NCBI GenBank assembly: GCA_028817435.1
Contig: JAPPPQ010000017.1
Span: 310,001-374,000 of the forward strand
Origin: Deltaproteobacteria bacterium
GTDB lineage: Bacteria > Myxococcota_A > UBA9160 > UBA6930
Direction of reading: 5' to 3'
DNA length: 64,000 nt
The translations under genes were made by a program, and so were the position numbers. Positions 17,913-24,567 of the stretch are shown here, one piece after another. The notes under the pieces were generated by a model that saw only the letters and a program-made list of their open reading frames with translations, did not search any database and was not told the DNA's origin. The first letter of the stretch is position 1; every line of letters begins with the position of its first letter.

Positions 17913-20255
17913 TCAAGCACCACCAGCAAGCTTCATCGTGCGTTTTACATAGCTTTCCAGCTCAGCTTCATCGACCGACTCCAAATTCGGATGATGATAG
18001 TCCCTCGAGTATTCATTGATATCTGTTACCTCTTCCACGAATCGCTTGAAGTTTTCTTCGGAGCCAAACAAATCCTGACCGGCGTCAGAATCTCGGAGAC
18101 TTCCAATCATTTCCCCCAATCCCATCTGCCGGCTCTCTTGGTAAAAGAGAGGGAACAATTGCTTCAGCCGCTCTTCTAGAACAAGACGTATAGTCTTAAC
18201 AACATCCTCAGCGTCACCTTTACCATACTCAGAAAATGCCTTCAATTTCGAGCAATTCTTATTATAATTAATTTGAGTATCATCCTCAATATCCCATTCG
18301 CGAATAATCATGTTATTGGATGCCCCTGCCATCCGCAAAGCCTTACGATCTTGATTCTTGCGGTTTTCATTCTGAAAAGCATATTCATCCCAGAGCATTT
18401 TCAGGAAATTCTTATCGTGCGACAACACAATGACTTGCTCTGCCTGAAGTTTTCGAATATGCCGCTTGGTTTCGGTGATTCGAAATCGATCAAGGCTGGT
18501 AAATGGATCGTCAAATATGACGACTTTGCGTTGGATGCTATCGTCCCGCTCCAGAGCTGCGAGGAAGAAAGCAAGGGCCAGAGCGCTCTTATCTCCAGAA
18601 CTCAAAGTGTTCTTAAAACTCGGCCCAAGGGTAGTTCTCGACCTGCCCAAATCAAAAATGGTGTTGTTAATCTCAAGGCAGTATTGAAAGCTTCGCGTTT
18701 TCCCCCTGTCGCTACGCTGCGATTTCTTAATCCGAAATCCTGTTCCAAACCTTTGCAGATGTTCATTTATGGATTTCTGATACCTCGGGAAAATTTTCTC
18801 GTCATGTTCACTCAACTCTCTTCGGACGGCTTCCTTCTCCCCTTGCAATCGGTCTTTCTCTTTCAAGGCAGCTTGATAATCATTGCAAGCTTGGACAACC
18901 TCCGGATCAAACCGCTTCTTCGTGGCTTTCAGGTGCTCCAGCTCTTTCTGAATTGCGGAAGCATCGGATTCATTCCGGGCAGCAGCTTTCTTATCCATGA
19001 TATGCTTGTTAATCTGCTTCACAACCTCGTTGTAATCAGAAACAGAATTTTGCAAAGCCTCAACATCATTCACAGCGGCGCCAAATTGCAGATCCATTGA
19101 AATCGACCCAATTAGATTATTCTGCTTTTGCAAAACAAGGGCCAAGCACTGTTCTCGCAAATTGGTGTATTTCTGTTGAATATCCTGAAATGAAATCGCG
19201 GGCAAAGAAACTTGGATGGTTTCCGAGATGGTTCGTGTCCAAAAATCGAAAAGATGACGATTTTCCAAAATCGCAAACTGGGCTGAGAAAAGTGAGCCTT
19301 CGCCTATCTCAGCATCGATTTGCCGAGCAAGTTGGTCAACTTCCCGCTTAAAATCACTGTAAGCAGCGTTAAAGTAATCCTTGTACACTTCGAGCAATTC
19401 ATTCGAGTCAAGACTCTGTCCACAAAAAGGACACACTTCACTATTGGTGCCCTCGGTGTATTCGAGGCCCTGCGAAAGCCACGATTCTCCATGGTTTTCC
19501 ATTTCATGATTAGAAATATGAGATCGCACCCTCTCATGAGCGTCAGCAGAAATATCTTCCAATGCCTTACCAATCACCATCTGAAAATTGTCTGGCGAAG
19601 ATGGGATTTGTATCGTTTCAAGCAATGCATTGGATCGAATTTCACCAGATTTGTTGGCAATTGCCAATTCCTCTGCCTTTTGCTGAATCTTTTCATCAAT
19701 GTCAGCTTCTTTTTTTACCTGCATATACTCCTTTACCCCGATTCCATCCGGTGTATATTCTTTCACAACTGCTTCCTTAGCTCTTTGCTCGTTCACAGTT
19801 TCTCGAATTTGCTCATTGATATACTCAATTTTAGAAGCCAGCTCCACTCCCTTTTTGCCCACAATCACGCGGTAGAGGTTCTTCTCGTGAGAGGGCTCAA
19901 CAAAGCTACCCGAATGAATATTCTCATCTACGAATGTGGAATCGAAGATAGCGATATCCGGATATGTGGCATCGATAGCGCGATTCGGATAGATCCACTG
20001 ATTGTTCGCGAATTTGTAATCCCTGCCATTGAGACGAATATGGACAAAAGGCGAAAGGTCATTCTCCACCGGCAACGTCTTCCGCTCAATCACAAGCTCT
20101 CGCCGATTGCTCTGGAGTGACCGGAGAATGGCACAGAAAGTGGTCTTCCCTCGGCCGTTATTCCCGTGAATTAGGGTAAGCTTTTGAAAAGGCACGTCGT
20201 TGCGAGAGTTTCGGAAGCATCCGACGTTCTTGATCGCAACCACTTCGTTAATCAT
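17913..20255 (-). CDS. AAA_13-type ATPase with zinc-hook-like motif, RloC/PrrC-like layout
   Basis: A 780-residue SMC/RecF-like ATPase. Walker A GNNGRGKT is at 31-38, a CPFCGQ zinc-hook-like motif at 275-280 inside long coiled coils, an ABC-signature-like LSSGDK at 551-556, Walker B VVIFDD at 578-583 and a switch His in LSHDKNF (H613). The C-terminal ~170 residues hold R690-x3-E694 and H754/H755, similar in kind to the Arg-x3-Glu...His set of PrrC/RloC anticodon nucleases, which belong to the same Pfam group. That function is inferred, not shown. The ATG at 20255 has GGAGGG upstream. Codon use is much more AT-rich than its neighbours, which suggests transfer. No restriction-modification genes lie beside it. 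Confidence 0.82.
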   Translation of the reverse strand: MINEVVAIKNVGCFRNSRNDVPFQKLTLIHGNNGRGKTTFCAILRSLQSNRRELVIERKTLPVENDLSPFVHIRLNGRDYKFANNQWIYPNRAIDATYPDIAIFDSTFVDENIHSGSFVEPSHEKNLYRVIVGKKGVELASKIEYINEQIRETVNEQRAKEAVVKEYTPDGIGVKEYMQVKKEADIDEKIQQKAEELAIANKSGEIRSNALLETIQIPSSPDNFQMVIGKALEDISADAHERVRSHISNHEMENHGESWLSQGLEYTEGTNSEVCPFCGQSLDSNELLEVYKDYFNAAYSDFKREVDQLARQIDAEIGEGSLFSAQFAILENRHLFDFWTRTISETIQVSLPAISFQDIQQKYTNLREQCLALVLQKQNNLIGSISMDLQFGAAVNDVEALQNSVSDYNEVVKQINKHIMDKKAAARNESDASAIQKELEHLKATKKRFDPEVVQACNDYQAALKEKDRLQGEKEAVRRELSEHDEKIFPRYQKSINEHLQRFGTGFRIKKSQRSDRGKTRSFQYCLEINNTIFDLGRSRTTLGPSFKNTLSSGDKSALALAFFLAALERDDSIQRKVVIFDDPFTSLDRFRITETKRHIRKLQAEQVIVLSHDKNFLKMLWDEYAFQNENRKNQDRKALRMAGASNNMIIREWDIEDDTQINYNKNCSKLKAFSEYGKGDAEDVVKTIRLVLEERLKQLFPLFYQESRQMGLGEMIGSLRDSDAGQDLFGSEENFKRFVEEVTDINEYSRDYHHPNLESVDEAELESYVKRTMKLAGGA

Positions 20256-20579
20256 CAGCGTCCCTCCTCTGCTTTTGGCAGCTCTCTGCCGAGTAGGCAC
20301 TATACCCTAGTCTTCGCCCGGCGCCAGTGTTTTTGGCGCACCCAAGCCGCAAGCCCACAGAGCTGCCCCCCCCCCCCCGCGGGGAGCGGTTTGGCCCCTT
20401 GACAGGGGCCCATCACCCATAGCACAATGTGTTCATCGCCTCGTAGAAAGCGCCGAATTGCGGGCCACCTGCCTGTTGGGCGAGAATTCGAGGCTCATAG
20501 CCGCTTTGAGCGCGGTGGATGCCAGCGGGCAAGGCGCTGGCGCACCGCGGCGGCGCGCAAACAACAGGGGGAGAAAGCC
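20256..20579. other. Divergent intergenic region with C13 tract, promoter and hairpin
   Basis: The gap between the ATPase and lipoprotein genes. It holds a 13-base C homopolymer (20366-20378), a predicted promoter (20399-20428) and, in the transcribed leader, a perfect 7-bp hairpin GCCAGCG/CGCTGGC (20521-20541) around GGCAAGG. On the minus strand TATAGT (20304-20299) could be the -10 of the ATPase gene, with only a poor -35. Confidence 0.6.
20399..20428 (+). promoter_or_regulatory. Predicted sigma-70 promoter of the lipoprotein gene
   Basis: A perfect TTGACA (20399-20404) is followed after 18 bases by CACAAT (20423-20428), a 4/6 match to the -10 consensus. Transcription would start near 20435 and give a leader of about 145 bases before the ATG at 20580. 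The 18-base spacer matches the array promoters downstream. The C13 tract ends 20 bases upstream of the -35. Confidence 0.5.
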
Positions 20580-21623
20580 ATGCAGACTCGGGCGGCGGTA
20601 GGGGTGATTGCGGCGGCGCTGGTGGCGCTGCTGCTCGGCGGCTGCGCCAGTGGGGGCGGCCTGTTCCGTGACCGCGGCGACCGCGCCGAAGCCGCGCGCC
20701 TGCTGCTGCAGCGCGAAGCCGACAAGGAGCGCGCGCTGCGCGAAGCCGAAGCCGAGGCCGAAGCGGCCCGCAGGGAGAAAGACGAGCGCGCCGAAAAGGC
20801 ACAGCGCGAAGCCGACGAAGACGCCGAACGCCGCAAGCGCGAAGAGGCGGCCGATGCCGAGCAGGAGCGCCGCCACCGGCGCGAACTGAAAGAGGCCGAA
20901 CACGACGCCAAGATTCGGGAGCTTCACAAGGGCAGCGCCGCGCCCCCGCCCGAAGTCGAGCGCTATCTAATCGCCATAGAGAAAGCCGCCGCCGCCGTCA
21001 CCGAGTGGGCGCATGAATTGAGTTATTGCGCCCACAGCAGCGAAACAAGCAAGCAGTTTGACGAGTGCTACGAAGAACAACGCGTGCACAGGCTTGAATT
21101 GAAAGCCAATGCAGCGTATTCGGATGCTGAGGAGGCGTTTGATTTGTTTCCCGCCAATATTCGGGGCATTCTCGATGAGGGGATAGATGATTGGGGGGCG
21201 GTAATCGACGCCAGACAGAGGGCGAAGCTAGGAGGATTTATACTATATGAATTCGAGCGCGGCCGCCCTACCTTCTACGACTCGCTAGTAGCTGGTGGCG
21301 TCGTCCGTCCCCCTGACCGCACCGAAGAGTCGCGCATGGAGGCAGCGCGCCGTTGGGCCGATCTCGCTGTTGGTGTAGCCGTGGCACAACGCGCCGTGGA
21401 GGCAAGGGGCCGCGCCGCCGTAGAGGCAAACCCGGCCGCATTCACGGTGGCCGGGGCTACGAGCGCGGCGGCGCAAAACGCGCAACCGGCGGAAGCGCCG
21501 CAGCGCGCAGACTCGAACTGTTACGACGGAACAATGATGCTGATCCGGCCGAATGAAACGCTGCGCGATTTTGACGCGCGCTGCGGCCCGCGCTCCCCAA
21601 CGCGCGCCGATGCCGCTCGATAA
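20580..21623 (+). CDS. Lipoprotein with long charged coiled coil, function unknown
   Basis: Residues 1-22 form a lipoprotein signal with lipobox LGGC (Cys22). A strongly charged Ala/Glu/Arg/Lys region follows (about 30-125), which should be a long coiled coil, and then a more globular part with several Cys (YCAHSSETSKQFDECYEEQR) and a helix-rich C-terminus. I do not recognise the family. The ATG at 20580 is preceded by AGGGGGAG; an upstream in-frame ATG at 20427 lies inside the predicted -10 element and cannot be used from that promoter. It is followed after 26 bases by the first of four coiled-coil paralogues, so a shared cell-envelope role is possible. Confidence 0.75.
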   Translation: MQTRAAVGVIAAALVALLLGGCASGGGLFRDRGDRAEAARLLLQREADKERALREAEAEAEAARREKDERAEKAQREADEDAERRKREEAADAEQERRHRRELKEAEHDAKIRELHKGSAAPPPEVERYLIAIEKAAAAVTEWAHELSYCAHSSETSKQFDECYEEQRVHRLELKANAAYSDAEEAFDLFPANIRGILDEGIDDWGAVIDARQRAKLGGFILYEFERGRPTFYDSLVAGGVVRPPDRTEESRMEAARRWADLAVGVAVAQRAVEARGRAAVEANPAAFTVAGATSAAAQNAQPAEAPQRADSNCYDGTMMLIRPNETLRDFDARCGPRSPTRADAAR

Positions 21624-21649: not shown

Positions 21650-21925
21650 TTGGCGCATTGGTCGGGGCTCGTCATTACTTTGCTGGGAGTCGTCGCCGCC
21701 GCTGCCCTTGCGGCCGCCGTCGCCTTCGGGGCTTGGCTCGGTAGCAGCATGGGGCAGGCGCGGGAAGACATCGTGCAGCTTCGCGGCGCGGCGGCGCACA
21801 ACACCTCGAGCATTCGGCGCATTGAGGCCCGCCTTGACTCGATGGATGCACGGCTCGACGATATGCAAGTCTCGCTCGCTGTGCTGGTAGAGCGCAGCGG
21901 TGGCGAAGCCACCCCGCGCCAGTAG
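21650..21925 (+). CDS. Array paralogue 1: small membrane-anchored coiled-coil protein
   Basis: About 91 residues: a hydrophobic helix (residues 7-31), then REDIVQLRGAAAHNTSSIRR, heptads of the RLDSMDARLDDMQ kind, and a C-terminal VLVERSGGEATPRQ shared with the next copies. The start is uncertain; TTG at 21650 is the most upstream usable codon and no good ribosome-binding site is visible. Unlike copies 2-4 it lacks its own promoter copy and follows the lipoprotein gene by 26 bases, so it is probably cotranscribed with it. Single-pass orientation and partners are unknown. Confidence 0.6.
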   Translation: MAHWSGLVITLLGVVAAAALAAAVAFGAWLGSSMGQAREDIVQLRGAAAHNTSSIRRIEARLDSMDARLDDMQVSLAVLVERSGGEATPRQ

Positions 21926-22049
21926 CCCCACCACCACCGAGCAGCTACGGCCCTCCCCTCTTCCCCCGGCATGGGCCGTGAAACGCCCCACAACCGGCCT
22001 TAGAGGCGAATTTGACAGCTTGGCCGCGCCGGTGGTATGGTGCGCGGCT
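21926..22049 (+). repeat. Array spacer repeat, copy 1
   Basis: The 124-base spacer between paralogues 1 and 2, repeated almost unchanged at 22353-22473 and 22792-22912. It contains the inverted repeat ACGGCCC/GGGCCGT (21947-21979), which flanks a pyrimidine-rich stretch and may act as a terminator or processing site although no U-tract follows, then the repeated promoter. Duplication of gene plus spacer explains the array. Confidence 0.8.
22012..22041 (+). promoter_or_regulatory. Array promoter of paralogue 2 (predicted leaderless)
   Basis: Perfect -35 TTGACA (22012-22017), 18-base spacer, -10 TATGGT (22036-22041), then 8 bases to the ATG at 22050. The expected start point lies about two bases before the ATG, so the mRNA should have no leader. 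The 8 bases contain no Shine-Dalgarno. Confidence 0.65.
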
Positions 22050-22352
22050 ATGGCGGAGGCGGCTTCCACAATCGCAGCGCCCGGCGTGGCGCGGGTCCGG
22101 GTCCAAGAGATTTTGCTGGGGGTTGCCGCAACCGCCGTTCTCGCTGGCATCCTCACATTCTGGGCCTGGCTCGCAATCAGCATGGTGCAGCTTCGTGAAG
22201 AGATGGCGCGCAACACTGAGAGTATTGTGCAGCTTCGCGGAGAGGTGGCGCGCAACACTGCGAGCATCGAGCGCAACACAGAGAGCATTCGGCGCGTCGA
22301 AGCTCTTCTACTGGCAGAGCGTGGCGGCGGCGCAACCGCCCCGCGCCAGTAG
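22050..22352 (+). CDS. Array paralogue 2: small membrane-anchored coiled-coil protein
   Basis: 100 residues. N-terminal MAEAASTIAAPGVARVRVQ, a membrane helix (about 20-42), then coiled-coil heptads of the ARNTESI / ERNTESI type and the shared C-terminus LLLAERGGGATAPRQ. The start at 22050 is fixed by near identity of this N-terminus to copy 3 and by the promoter just upstream. Family unknown; by architecture it resembles small membrane-tethered coiled-coil proteins that oligomerise. Confidence 0.75.
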   Translation: MAEAASTIAAPGVARVRVQEILLGVAATAVLAGILTFWAWLAISMVQLREEMARNTESIVQLRGEVARNTASIERNTESIRRVEALLLAERGGGATAPRQ

Positions 22353-22473
22353 CCCCACCACCGAGCAGCTACGGCCCTCCCCACTTCCCCCGGCAGGGGC
22401 CGTTACACGCCCCGCAACCGGGCTTAGAGGCGAATTTGACAATTTGGCCGCGCCGGTGGTATAGTGCGCGGCT
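22353..22473 (+). repeat. Array spacer repeat, copy 2
   Basis: The 121-base copy of the array spacer. The inverted repeat ACGGCCC (22371-22377)/GGGCCGT (22397-22403) is perfect over 7 bp. The repeated promoter lies at its 3' end. Confidence 0.8.
22436..22465 (+). promoter_or_regulatory. Array promoter of paralogue 3 (predicted leaderless)
   Basis: TTGACA (22436-22441), 18 bases, TATAGT (22460-22465, 5/6 match to consensus), 8 bases, ATG at 22474. This is the strongest promoter match in the array and leaves no room for a ribosome-binding site in the mRNA. Confidence 0.7.
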
Positions 22474-22791
22474 ATGGCGGAGGCAGCCTCCACATTCAAG
22501 GTGCCCGGCGTGGCGCGCGTCCGGGTCCAAGAGATTTTGTTGGGGGCCGCCCTTGCGGCCGTCCTCACATTTTGGGGCTGGCTCGCCGTCAGTGTGGTGC
22601 AGCTTCGTGAAGAGGTAGCGCGCAACTCCGAAAACATCGCGCGCAACACCGAGAGCATTCGGCGCATTGAGGCCCGCCTTGACTCGATGGATTCCCGGCT
22701 CAATGCCATGCAAGACTCGCTCGCTGCCATGCAAAGCTCGCTCGCCGTGCTGGTCGAACGCAGCGGCGGCGAAACCGCCCCACGCCAGTAG
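22474..22791 (+). CDS. Array paralogue 3: small membrane-anchored coiled-coil protein
   Basis: 105 residues: MAEAASTFKVPGVARVRVQE, a membrane helix (about 20-40), then VVQLREEVARNSENIARNTE and RIEARLDSMDSRLNAMQDSL heptads, ending VLVERSGGETAPRQ. Its front resembles copy 2 and its back copy 1, which suggests recombination between units. Same promoter and spacer as copy 2. Confidence 0.75.
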   Translation: MAEAASTFKVPGVARVRVQEILLGAALAAVLTFWGWLAVSVVQLREEVARNSENIARNTESIRRIEARLDSMDSRLNAMQDSLAAMQSSLAVLVERSGGETAPRQ

Positions 22792-22912
22792 CCCCACTAC
22801 CGAGCAGCTACGGCCTCCCCTCTTCCCCTGGCAGGGGCCGTGAAATGCCCTGCAAACGGCCTTAGAGGCGAATTTGGCAATTTGGCCGCGCCGGTGGTAT
22901 GGTGCGCGGCCG
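22792..22912 (+). repeat. Array spacer repeat, copy 3
   Basis: The 121-base copy before paralogue 4. The inverted repeat is shortened to ACGGCC (22810-22815)/GGCCGT (22836-22841), and the inner CCCC-TGGCA-GGGG can also form a small hairpin. Confidence 0.8.
22874..22903 (+). promoter_or_regulatory. Array promoter of paralogue 4
   Basis: TTGGCA (22874-22879), 18 bases, TATGGT (22898-22903), then 9 bases to the ATG at 22913. The -35 has one change from the other copies (TTGACA to TTGGCA) and the downstream gap is one base longer, so this copy may be weaker but would still give a near-leaderless mRNA. Confidence 0.6.
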
Positions 22913-23278
22913 ATGTCGCAGGCAATCTCCACAGCCGAAACGCCCGGCGCGGAGCGAGTCCGTTTCCGATTCCAGACCCAGGATGTTTTGCTGGTTATGC
23001 TGGGAGTCATCGCCGCCGCCGCCCCGGCAGCCGCCGTCGGATTTGGGGCTTGGCTCGGAAACAGCATGGTGCAGGTGCGGGAAGACATCGTGCACCTTCG
23101 CAGCGCGGTAGCGCACAACGCCGAGGCAATCGCGCGCAATGCCGAGGCAATCGCTCACAACGCCGAGGCAATCGCGCACAACGCCGAGGCAATTGAGCGC
23201 AACGCCGAGAGCCTGAAGCGCATTGAGGCACTGTTGCTGGCCGAGCGCAACGGCGGCGAAGCCGCCCCGCGCCGGTAG
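22913..23278 (+). CDS. Array paralogue 4: small membrane-anchored coiled-coil protein with perfect heptads
   Basis: 121 residues: MSQAISTAETPGAERVRFRF, a membrane helix (about 25-50), SMVQVREDIVHLRSAV, then five consecutive seven-residue repeats of the type AHNAEAI, and LKRIEALLLAERNGGEAAPRR. The heptads are encoded by 21-base direct repeats. Asn at a regular heptad position suggests a defined oligomeric coiled coil. It is the last copy; the convergent AlbA-type gene ends 65 bases downstream. Confidence 0.75.
   Translation: MSQAISTAETPGAERVRFRFQTQDVLLVMLGVIAAAAPAAAVGFGAWLGNSMVQVREDIVHLRSAVAHNAEAIARNAEAIAHNAEAIAHNAEAIERNAESLKRIEALLLAERNGGEAAPRR
23111..23215 (+). repeat. Five tandem 21-bp coding repeats (heptad-encoding)
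   Basis: Units start at 23111, 23132, 23153, 23174 and 23195; the first reads GCGCACAACGCCGAGGCAAT plus C. Each encodes one heptad (AHNAEAI, ARNAEAI, AHNAEAI, AHNAEAI, ERNAESL). Units 1, 3 and 4 are nearly identical at DNA level, so copy number could change by slippage without shifting the frame. Confidence 0.9.
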
Positions 23279-23343: not shown

Positions 23344-24567
23344 CTACTTCCAGAGCCGCACGATGAAGCGGTCGTCATCTTCAATCAGGTCGGGCTCTTT
23401 GCCGTTGTGTTCGCGCATTGCCTCGATGATTCTGCGGCGGACGCCCATGCCCCGGTGCTCAATGTAGTCGTAATCGCGCAGGATGTTTTTCAGCAGCTCG
23501 TTTCGGGTGGCGCGAATGCCCTCCTTCATTTTCGAGACAGTCACGCCATTTGGAAGCCTGCCGGGGGAAATCACTTCCAGGCGATCCCGATACAGGGAAA
23601 CCTCAATGTCGGTTCCGCGAATCGTGTAATCGCGGTGCACCACGGCATTTACAATGGCTTCACGCACAGCGTCCAATGGCAAAGAGGTCTTTCGCACGCG
23701 CTGTGCGCTCTCCAGCCAGGCACTGCTCCCCATATTGCGTTTCACAAAGTCCACACAGAGGTCTATGACGCCCTTTTCCAAAAAAGCCCCTGCCTTCGAT
23801 TTGCTGGAAATCAAAGGGCCTCGAATCACTTCCTCGTCCACCGTGTTGTAATCCTTGTCCATTCCCGGAAACGCCGTCGCCGTAATGCCAGACTGGGGCA
23901 GCCTGCGGTTCGGTGCGTTTCCAAAGAGCAAAAGCCCTCCCACCGTGGCAAAAACACGCCCTCCCAATTCCTTTAGAAAATCAAGATTCAGCAAAATTCG
24001 CTGCCAACTCTCCAAATCTTCCACATCCGGTGCGTCTCGATTGAGCATTATGAGAAAGTAGTTTTCCAGAAGATTCAAATTCAGATCTTCCAATCGAGTG
24101 TCGGGAACAGGATTGAGATCGAATTGCAGCAAATTAGAAGACTGATAGAGGCGCATCTCCTGCTCTCGCGTGGCTTCCCGGGATGTAGTCCCAATGCGAA
24201 CGAAAGTCACCCACGATGCCCCTCGCTTGGCCTTGTAGGGCTTGTCCGGCGCATCCGCAGGCAAACGGATAACGCCAATGGTCTTGTCCGGATCGTCCAG
24301 CTTGATGGCCTGCCAAACGAGAATTGCCGGGGGTTGCAGGTTGTTCTGGGCGATGTTCATCACCCATTCCTCTGCCTCTTTTGTCGGCCGCACAAGGCCA
24401 GCAATGCTCCCATTGTCTTCGACACCGAGCAGAATGTGGCCGCCCTCAAGGTTCAGCAATGCGGCCATCTCGCTGGCAAGCTTGTCCTGGTGCACATCGT
24501 CCCGCTTGAATTCCACTTCGGAATTCTCGCCGTTTCGAATCAGTTCTTGCAAATCTGCGCGGTTCAC
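23344..24567 (-). CDS. AlbA_2/Schlafen-type DNA-binding and GHKL ATPase-like protein
   Basis: 407 residues with the common two-part layout: an N-terminal AlbA_2 domain (NSEVEFKRDDVHQDKLASEM, LLNLEGGHILLGVEDNG) and a C-terminal HATPase-like part (DAVREAIVNAVVHRDYTIRG with the N-box Asn, then DRLEVISPGRLPNG). Such proteins are annotated as putative transcriptional regulators or ATP-binding proteins and are frequent in accessory and defence regions. Start is GTG at 24567, 7 bases after the coaD stop, so it may ride on the rsmD-coaD transcript. It is more AT-rich than coaD, consistent with acquisition. Role unknown. Confidence 0.82.
   Translation of the reverse strand: MNRADLQELIRNGENSEVEFKRDDVHQDKLASEMAALLNLEGGHILLGVEDNGSIAGLVRPTKEAEEWVMNIAQNNLQPPAILVWQAIKLDDPDKTIGVIRLPADAPDKPYKAKRGASWVTFVRIGTTSREATREQEMRLYQSSNLLQFDLNPVPDTRLEDLNLNLLENYFLIMLNRDAPDVEDLESWQRILLNLDFLKELGGRVFATVGGLLLFGNAPNRRLPQSGITATAFPGMDKDYNTVDEEVIRGPLISSKSKAGAFLEKGVIDLCVDFVKRNMGSSAWLESAQRVRKTSLPLDAVREAIVNAVVHRDYTIRGTDIEVSLYRDRLEVISPGRLPNGVTVSKMKEGIRATRNELLKNILRDYDYIEHRGMGVRRRIIEAMREHNGKEPDLIEDDDRFIVRLWK

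Follow-up and report, generated by a model that had tools for sequence, protein, structure and literature searches.

Four adjacent paralogous genes in the window, the 64,000-nucleotide stretch of bacterial DNA that was analysed, encode short membrane-anchored coiled-coil proteins, and three of them carry a promoter-like sequence of their own. How did such an array arise, and what could a bacterium gain from several versions of so small a protein? The best-known bacterial tandem gene families diversify surface antigens. The amplified units here are tiny membrane-anchored rods, most copies with a complete promoter, and the same design recurs in several arrays of one genome.

Layout of the array and its promoters

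The array consists of three intact genes and a 5′-truncated copy on the forward strand (Table 1). A preliminary description of the locus had called the spacers of 121–124 bases near copies, and a 97-base core common to all three is indeed 91% identical. It had also ascribed one membrane helix and a common C-terminal tail to the products; each of the four has one hydrophobic helix, then a charged coil, then the short tail (V/A)ER-x-GG-x-x-x-PR. Its count of four adjacent genes stood as far as reading frames, spacers and repeats were concerned, but copy 1 is not equivalent to the others. This copy has neither ATG nor promoter and lacks about 20 N-terminal residues; its frame is intact, and an in-frame TAG stands just before the sole possible start (TAG CTC TTG). 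Because these parts are missing and homology begins only at about 21677, copy 1 is best read as a 5′-truncated remnant. No intrinsic terminators were found between the copies, where hairpins were weak (z −0.9 to −1.6).

Table 1. Features of the array, its neighbours and the further arrays of the genome. Positions are those of the window unless a locus or contig is named.
Feature	Position	Strand	Description
AAA_13 ATPase neighbour	17913..20300	-	Best match is candidate defence family PDC-S06 (E 2e-74)
Lipoprotein neighbour	20427..21623	+	Lipobox LLGGC, likely start 20556; charged coiled coil; no Pfam match; array membership not established
Copy 1	21650..21925	+	5′-truncated member; TTG start only; front B, back X
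Spacer preceding copy 2	21926..22049	+	124 bases
Copy 2 promoter	22012..22041	+	TTGACA-18-TATGGT; −10 end 8 bases from ATG
Copy 2	22050..22352	+	100 aa; membrane helix and heptad coiled coil with three hxxNT heptads; front A, back Y
42-base (two-heptad) direct repeats	22179..22262	+	Two head-to-tail, within copy 2
Spacer preceding copy 3	22353..22473	+	121 bases
Copy 3 promoter	22436..22465	+	TTGACA-18-TATAGT; −10 end 8 bases from ATG
Copy 3	22474..22791	+	105 aa; membrane helix and heptad coiled coil; front A, back X
Spacer preceding copy 4	22792..22912	+	121 bases
Copy 4 promoter	22874..22903	+	TTGGCA-18-TATGGT; −10 end 9 bases from ATG
Copy 4	22913..23278	+	121 aa; membrane helix and longest coil, five N-layer heptads; front B, back Y
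21-base (one-heptad) direct repeats	23111..23194	+	Four head-to-tail, within copy 4; source of coil-length change
Schlafen AlbA_2 / HATPase_c_4 neighbour	23344..24567	-	Other side of array from AAA_13
C47 array	L021 3705-5896 (C47:162203-164392)		6 copies, directly upstream of gatC/gatA; two identical
C12 array	L022 3776-5704		5 copies; one reading frame throughout, spacers multiples of three
C45 array	L063 1444-3575		5 copies; same subfamily as C30; short contig
C30 array	L064 2552-3751		3 copies; same subfamily as C45; short contig
C65 and C9 genes	L065 2461-4085 (C65); L067 2388-2720 (C9)		CCDC90/DUF1640-like, stalk length strongly varied; C65 has 3 copies
C18 array	L066 634-2098		Three tandem copies, another membrane-helix coil family; 3 kb contig; coil lengths differ
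C56 cluster	L023 558-2034		Two CCDC90-like genes (C-terminal anchor) interleaved with two N-terminal-helix coil genes

The promoters described for copies 2–4 matched exactly, and three such sites occur in the array against 0.2 expected from shuffled sequence. TG precedes the −10 element in all three, and no Shine-Dalgarno sequence lies between this element and the ATG. Only 8–9 bases separate the two, a distance that implies leaderless transcripts and not the usual 5′ leader. Among 438 genes in 830 kb of the genome (a non-random sample made up of contig C22 whole, C47 nearly whole and the array contigs), TANNNT ended 6–8 bases upstream of an in-frame ATG in 38 cases, whereas internal ATGs gave an expectation of 3.4. 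On this sequence signature, the organism appears to make frequent use of leaderless starts, a class to which the promoters of the array conform. The array promoter block had no other close match in the same 830 kb.

Recombination, coil structure and coding constraint

Sites informative across the four copies fall into two incompatible patterns. Fourteen separate copies 2 and 3 from copies 1 and 4, nearly all of them in the front of the gene, and six, all in the back, separate copies 1 and 3 from copies 2 and 4. The separation by position was significant (permutation p = 0.003), and windowed identities agree with it. Copies 1 to 4 are thus of types B-X, A-Y, A-X and B-Y, and because every front/back combination occurs, the mosaic is best explained as the product of recombination or gene conversion. 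The earlier suggestion that copy 3 joins the front of copy 2 to the back of copy 1 was right, and the four combinations go beyond it. Adjacent paralogues with incompatible site patterns along the gene, by which tandem families with recombination are recognised, are both seen in the window array. The direct repeats of whole heptads within copies 4 and 2 offer a way for coil length to change.

Heptad periodicity was present in all 22 coil tails examined from the arrays of this genome. Across these arrays, h-x-x-N-[TSGA]-x-x-h heptads numbered 26 against 1.4 in shuffles, and RhxxhE motifs 15 against 0.9, both counts including related copies that are not independent. Copies 2, 3 and 4 contain 3, 2 and 5 of the N-layer heptads, respectively; RhxxhE was found only in other arrays and in none of the window copies. 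N@d layers and RhxxhE are described determinants of trimerization and register (PMC4786415, PMC5940361, PMC12933892). Because both are trimer signals, the array proteins are likely to be parallel trimeric coiled coils; heptad periodicity, N@d and RhxxhE, which together mark such coils in sequence, are found across the arrays of the genome. For copy 1, AlphaFold predicts an unbroken helix over residues 2–84.

The frames of these genes are under coding constraint, since no stop codon was seen in 23 copies from five arrays where a neutral simulation predicted about 14. On this result we rejected a non-coding repeat with disrupted frames; homology to a known repeat of that kind was one of the outcomes that the preliminary description had named as fatal to its interpretation. 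Length differences were dropped as a coding test, because spacer lengths too mostly differ by multiples of three. dN/dS was mostly 0.2–0.9 between copies, and 0.4–0.9 for most pairs, which points to weak constraint or to constraint that diversification partly counteracts; relaxed selection also fits these values. The proposal of selection for dose or diversity was accordingly borne out in part. Coding constraint is present, and recombination among copies that are unlike in both the length and the sequence of their coils favours diversity over dose, but relaxed selection fits the dN/dS values.

Further arrays and a gammaproteobacterial copy

A search of the same 2.8 Mb genome with a profile built from several members revealed at least six further tandem clusters, with about 25 more genes for short membrane-anchored coiled-coil proteins, some of them CCDC90/DUF1640-like. 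Most of these clusters have a repeated promoter of their own design. In the C47 array, TTGACA-17-CAC(A/C)AT stands 7 bases before the ATG in all six copies, which is leaderless spacing. The C12 array, whose neighbours are cytochrome genes, has TTGAC/GT-18-CATACT with a Shine-Dalgarno sequence, clearly recognisable for three of its five copies, and two copies start with TTG/ATA instead of ATG. Nearly all copies of the C45 and C30 arrays are preceded by TTGACA with a spacer of 17–19 and a Shine-Dalgarno-like sequence, and the CCDC90-like copies of the C56 cluster by TTGACA/G-17/18-CACAAT. The C65 and C18 clusters lack per-copy promoters and look operon-like. Because promoter designs differ between arrays, it is probable that promoter–gene units formed separately in several of them. 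The view that the family arose by duplication of a promoter-bearing unit was upheld, and the genome shows such duplication again, with other promoter designs, in three or more further arrays.

Members of one array are conserved at their ends and vary in the coil. With few exceptions, the convincing small-paralogue tandem clusters of the 830 kb sample encode membrane- or lipid-anchored coils; the exceptions are low-scoring antisense or repeat-gene frames. As several arrays are on short contigs or lie at the end of a contig, the number found is probably an underestimate. No partner gene common to the array neighbourhoods was found.

Some features of the surroundings deserve mention. The arrays tend toward contig ends, and poly-C/poly-G runs at contig ends (L022 5910-5966 and the start of L024) are probably assembly artefacts. 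Between the C45 and C30 contigs another 1.9 kb is common, 96.5% identical, and within it begins the gene for a protein that is rich in repeats and probably secreted. An autotransporter beta-domain protein is encoded in the C30 neighbourhood. The C65 and C9 genes adjoin Calx-beta repeat proteins, and their flanks are 89% identical.

Outside this genome the window family is rare. Searches of 378 further genomes from the phylum and of 97 relatives gave weak coil matches only, with no relative among them, and relatives of the gammaproteobacterial genome described below likewise gave weak coil matches only. Viral contigs and phages contained no homologue, and plasmids gave a chance-level coil match. 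A match in G099 (L075) was set aside as it looks like a different coil protein. The single outside homologue lies between recA and clpP in the gammaproteobacterial MAG PNGst_C_binSS3 (L069 5925-6262); an apparent ABC-transporter gene fragment follows it. This copy is closest to copy 3, with 81% DNA identity over 360 bases, and is frameshifted by a 2-base insertion. The likeness starts within the promoter (TTGCCT-18-CATGGT) and ends at the stop codon, and sequence upstream of the −35 element is unshared. Identity between the RecA proteins of the two genomes is just 63%, which makes it likely that the cassette was transferred between distant lineages. This reading would survive misbinning of the contig, because recA itself adjoins the copy. 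No CCDC90-like genes were found in the gammaproteobacterial genome.

Known systems and competing explanations

The preliminary description knew no named system with this layout, and we found no curated family for the four window proteins in Pfam, NCBIfam, PHROGs or PADLOC, nor, in the literature, a paper on such arrays. In PADLOC, only copy 3 gave matches, coiled-coil chance matches at E 0.006. CCDC90/DUF1640 proteins (PF07798; MCUR1, CCDC90B and prokaryotic relatives) resemble the window proteins as short single-TM proteins with coiled-coil stalks, and proteins of this type, carrying the reported beta-layer motif (NLATKADL), are also tandem in this genome with varied stalk length. The C65, C56 and C9 proteins have an LATKAD motif and a C-terminal helix and match PF07798 at E about 1e-6 to 1e-4 (23–30 bits, below the cut-off of 33.5). 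However, the CCDC90/DUF1640 plan is a head, the beta-layer motif [aliphatic]-A-T-K-[polar]-[DE], a stalk and a C-terminal anchor, whereas the window proteins have an N-terminal helix, no head and no motif. With the helix at the opposite end, no head and no match to PF07798 even at E 1, the window genes were rejected as members of that family.

Recombining bacterial tandem multigene families include surface lipoprotein or antigen arrays. The window array shares with these its tandem paralogues, conserved ends, variable middle and intragenic recombination, but its units are small membrane-anchored coils, most with their own promoter and several leaderless, and a silent-cassette/expression-site layout was not seen in the arrays. 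The hxxNTxx heptads with a core asparagine recall the N@d trimers of trimeric autotransporter adhesin stalks; the window proteins, in contrast, have an N-terminal membrane helix, about 100 aa and no barrel, so that the likeness is one of core chemistry, not family. Rz-type spanins and XhlA-like phage proteins gave weak profile matches, and an N-terminal helix followed by a coil is common to the window proteins and spanins. Unlike a spanin system, the window array has no phage context and no partner spanin, and consists of tandem paralogues with their own promoters; no endolysin, holin or phage genes of a lysis cassette were recognised around it.

We consider, at about an even chance, that promoter–gene cassettes multiply and recombine to yield membrane stalks varied in length and sequence. 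Neutral or selfish amplification, in which repeat-driven recombination duplicates cassettes that decay under weak constraint with no gain in dose or diversity, is possible but not probable. It would accommodate the high dN/dS, the truncated copy 1, the weak C12 starts, the frameshifted outside copy and the absence of the family from all 378 other genomes of the phylum searched, yet the missing stop codons argue against it. Nor does it predict that nearly all convincing short-gene clusters in the 830 kb sample should be of one biochemical kind, or sit well with heptad, N@d and RhxxhE features kept in separate subfamilies. Per-copy promoters and the two identical C47 copies would suit functionally equal copies, multiplied so that more is made of a single abundant structural protein in an Lpp-like role; this is unlikely, given that most copies differ by 15–50% of residues as well as in coil length, and that mosaicism makes difference, not sameness.

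Two other explanations look to the neighbouring genes. The stalks might aid export or anchoring of giant repeat adhesins or autotransporters, in keeping with the Calx-beta repeat proteins beside the C65 and C9 genes and the autotransporter beta-domain protein near the C30 array. A precedent is a lipoprotein assisting display of the trimeric autotransporter SadA (PMC3953254). We regard this explanation as quite unlikely, as no adhesin adjoins the window array or the C47 and C12 arrays, which border gatC/gatA and cytochrome genes, respectively. A phage-derived module for lysis, with an Rz-like spanin, or for defence, as the AAA_13 and Schlafen neighbours might hint, is very unlikely: the weak PHROG Rz-like matches (E 0.001–0.006) are of a size that arises among any membrane-helix-plus-coil proteins, no lysis gene is nearby, and no phage, viral-contig or PADLOC homologue was found. 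The neighbours do match candidate defence families, and the AAA_13 and Schlafen genes flanking the array may possibly form a defence island, but other arrays adjoin housekeeping genes.

For amplification and recombination of cassettes, the origin of the array is well supported, and its function is what we infer. Each unit would be a self-contained cassette with a sigma-70-type promoter, a leaderless mRNA and a short gene whose product is a parallel trimeric stalk anchored in the membrane. The near-copy spacers support unequal recombination as the way in which these cassettes multiply, and the mosaic pattern and in-gene heptad repeats show that crossovers or gene conversion join differing membrane/front and coil/back modules and alter coil length. 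With a promoter in every cassette, fresh copies would be expressible wherever in the array they land. The cell would then keep a graded set of homotrimeric stalks of different lengths, with polar core layers at different places, and these differences would limit mixing between variants. Their most likely role, as inner membrane or envelope spacers or scaffolds assembling around partners, is the weakest step. The proposed build would be comparable to that of the CCDC90/DUF1640 stalks, likewise amplified in tandem by this genome. Against this explanation, the truncated copy 1, the TTG/ATA starts and weak promoters of C12 and the frameshifted outside homologue indicate that decay happens, C65 and C18 lack per-copy promoters, and dN/dS fits relaxed constraint.

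A bolder version, which we think doubtful, is a genome-wide combinatorial library of membrane-anchored trimeric coils, encoded by autonomous, often leaderless cassettes in several unrelated arrays, with module swapping and whole-heptad length change, and movable between distant bacteria. The closely similar gammaproteobacterial copy suggests that the cassette can cross lineages. The arrays raise the questions of what role repeated, length-graded coiled coils play in the bacterial envelope and whether bacterial CCDC90-type stalks belong to the same trade. Outside the window, at C22:239719-241432, lies a tandem lipoprotein pair with charged coils like that of the lipoprotein neighbouring the array.
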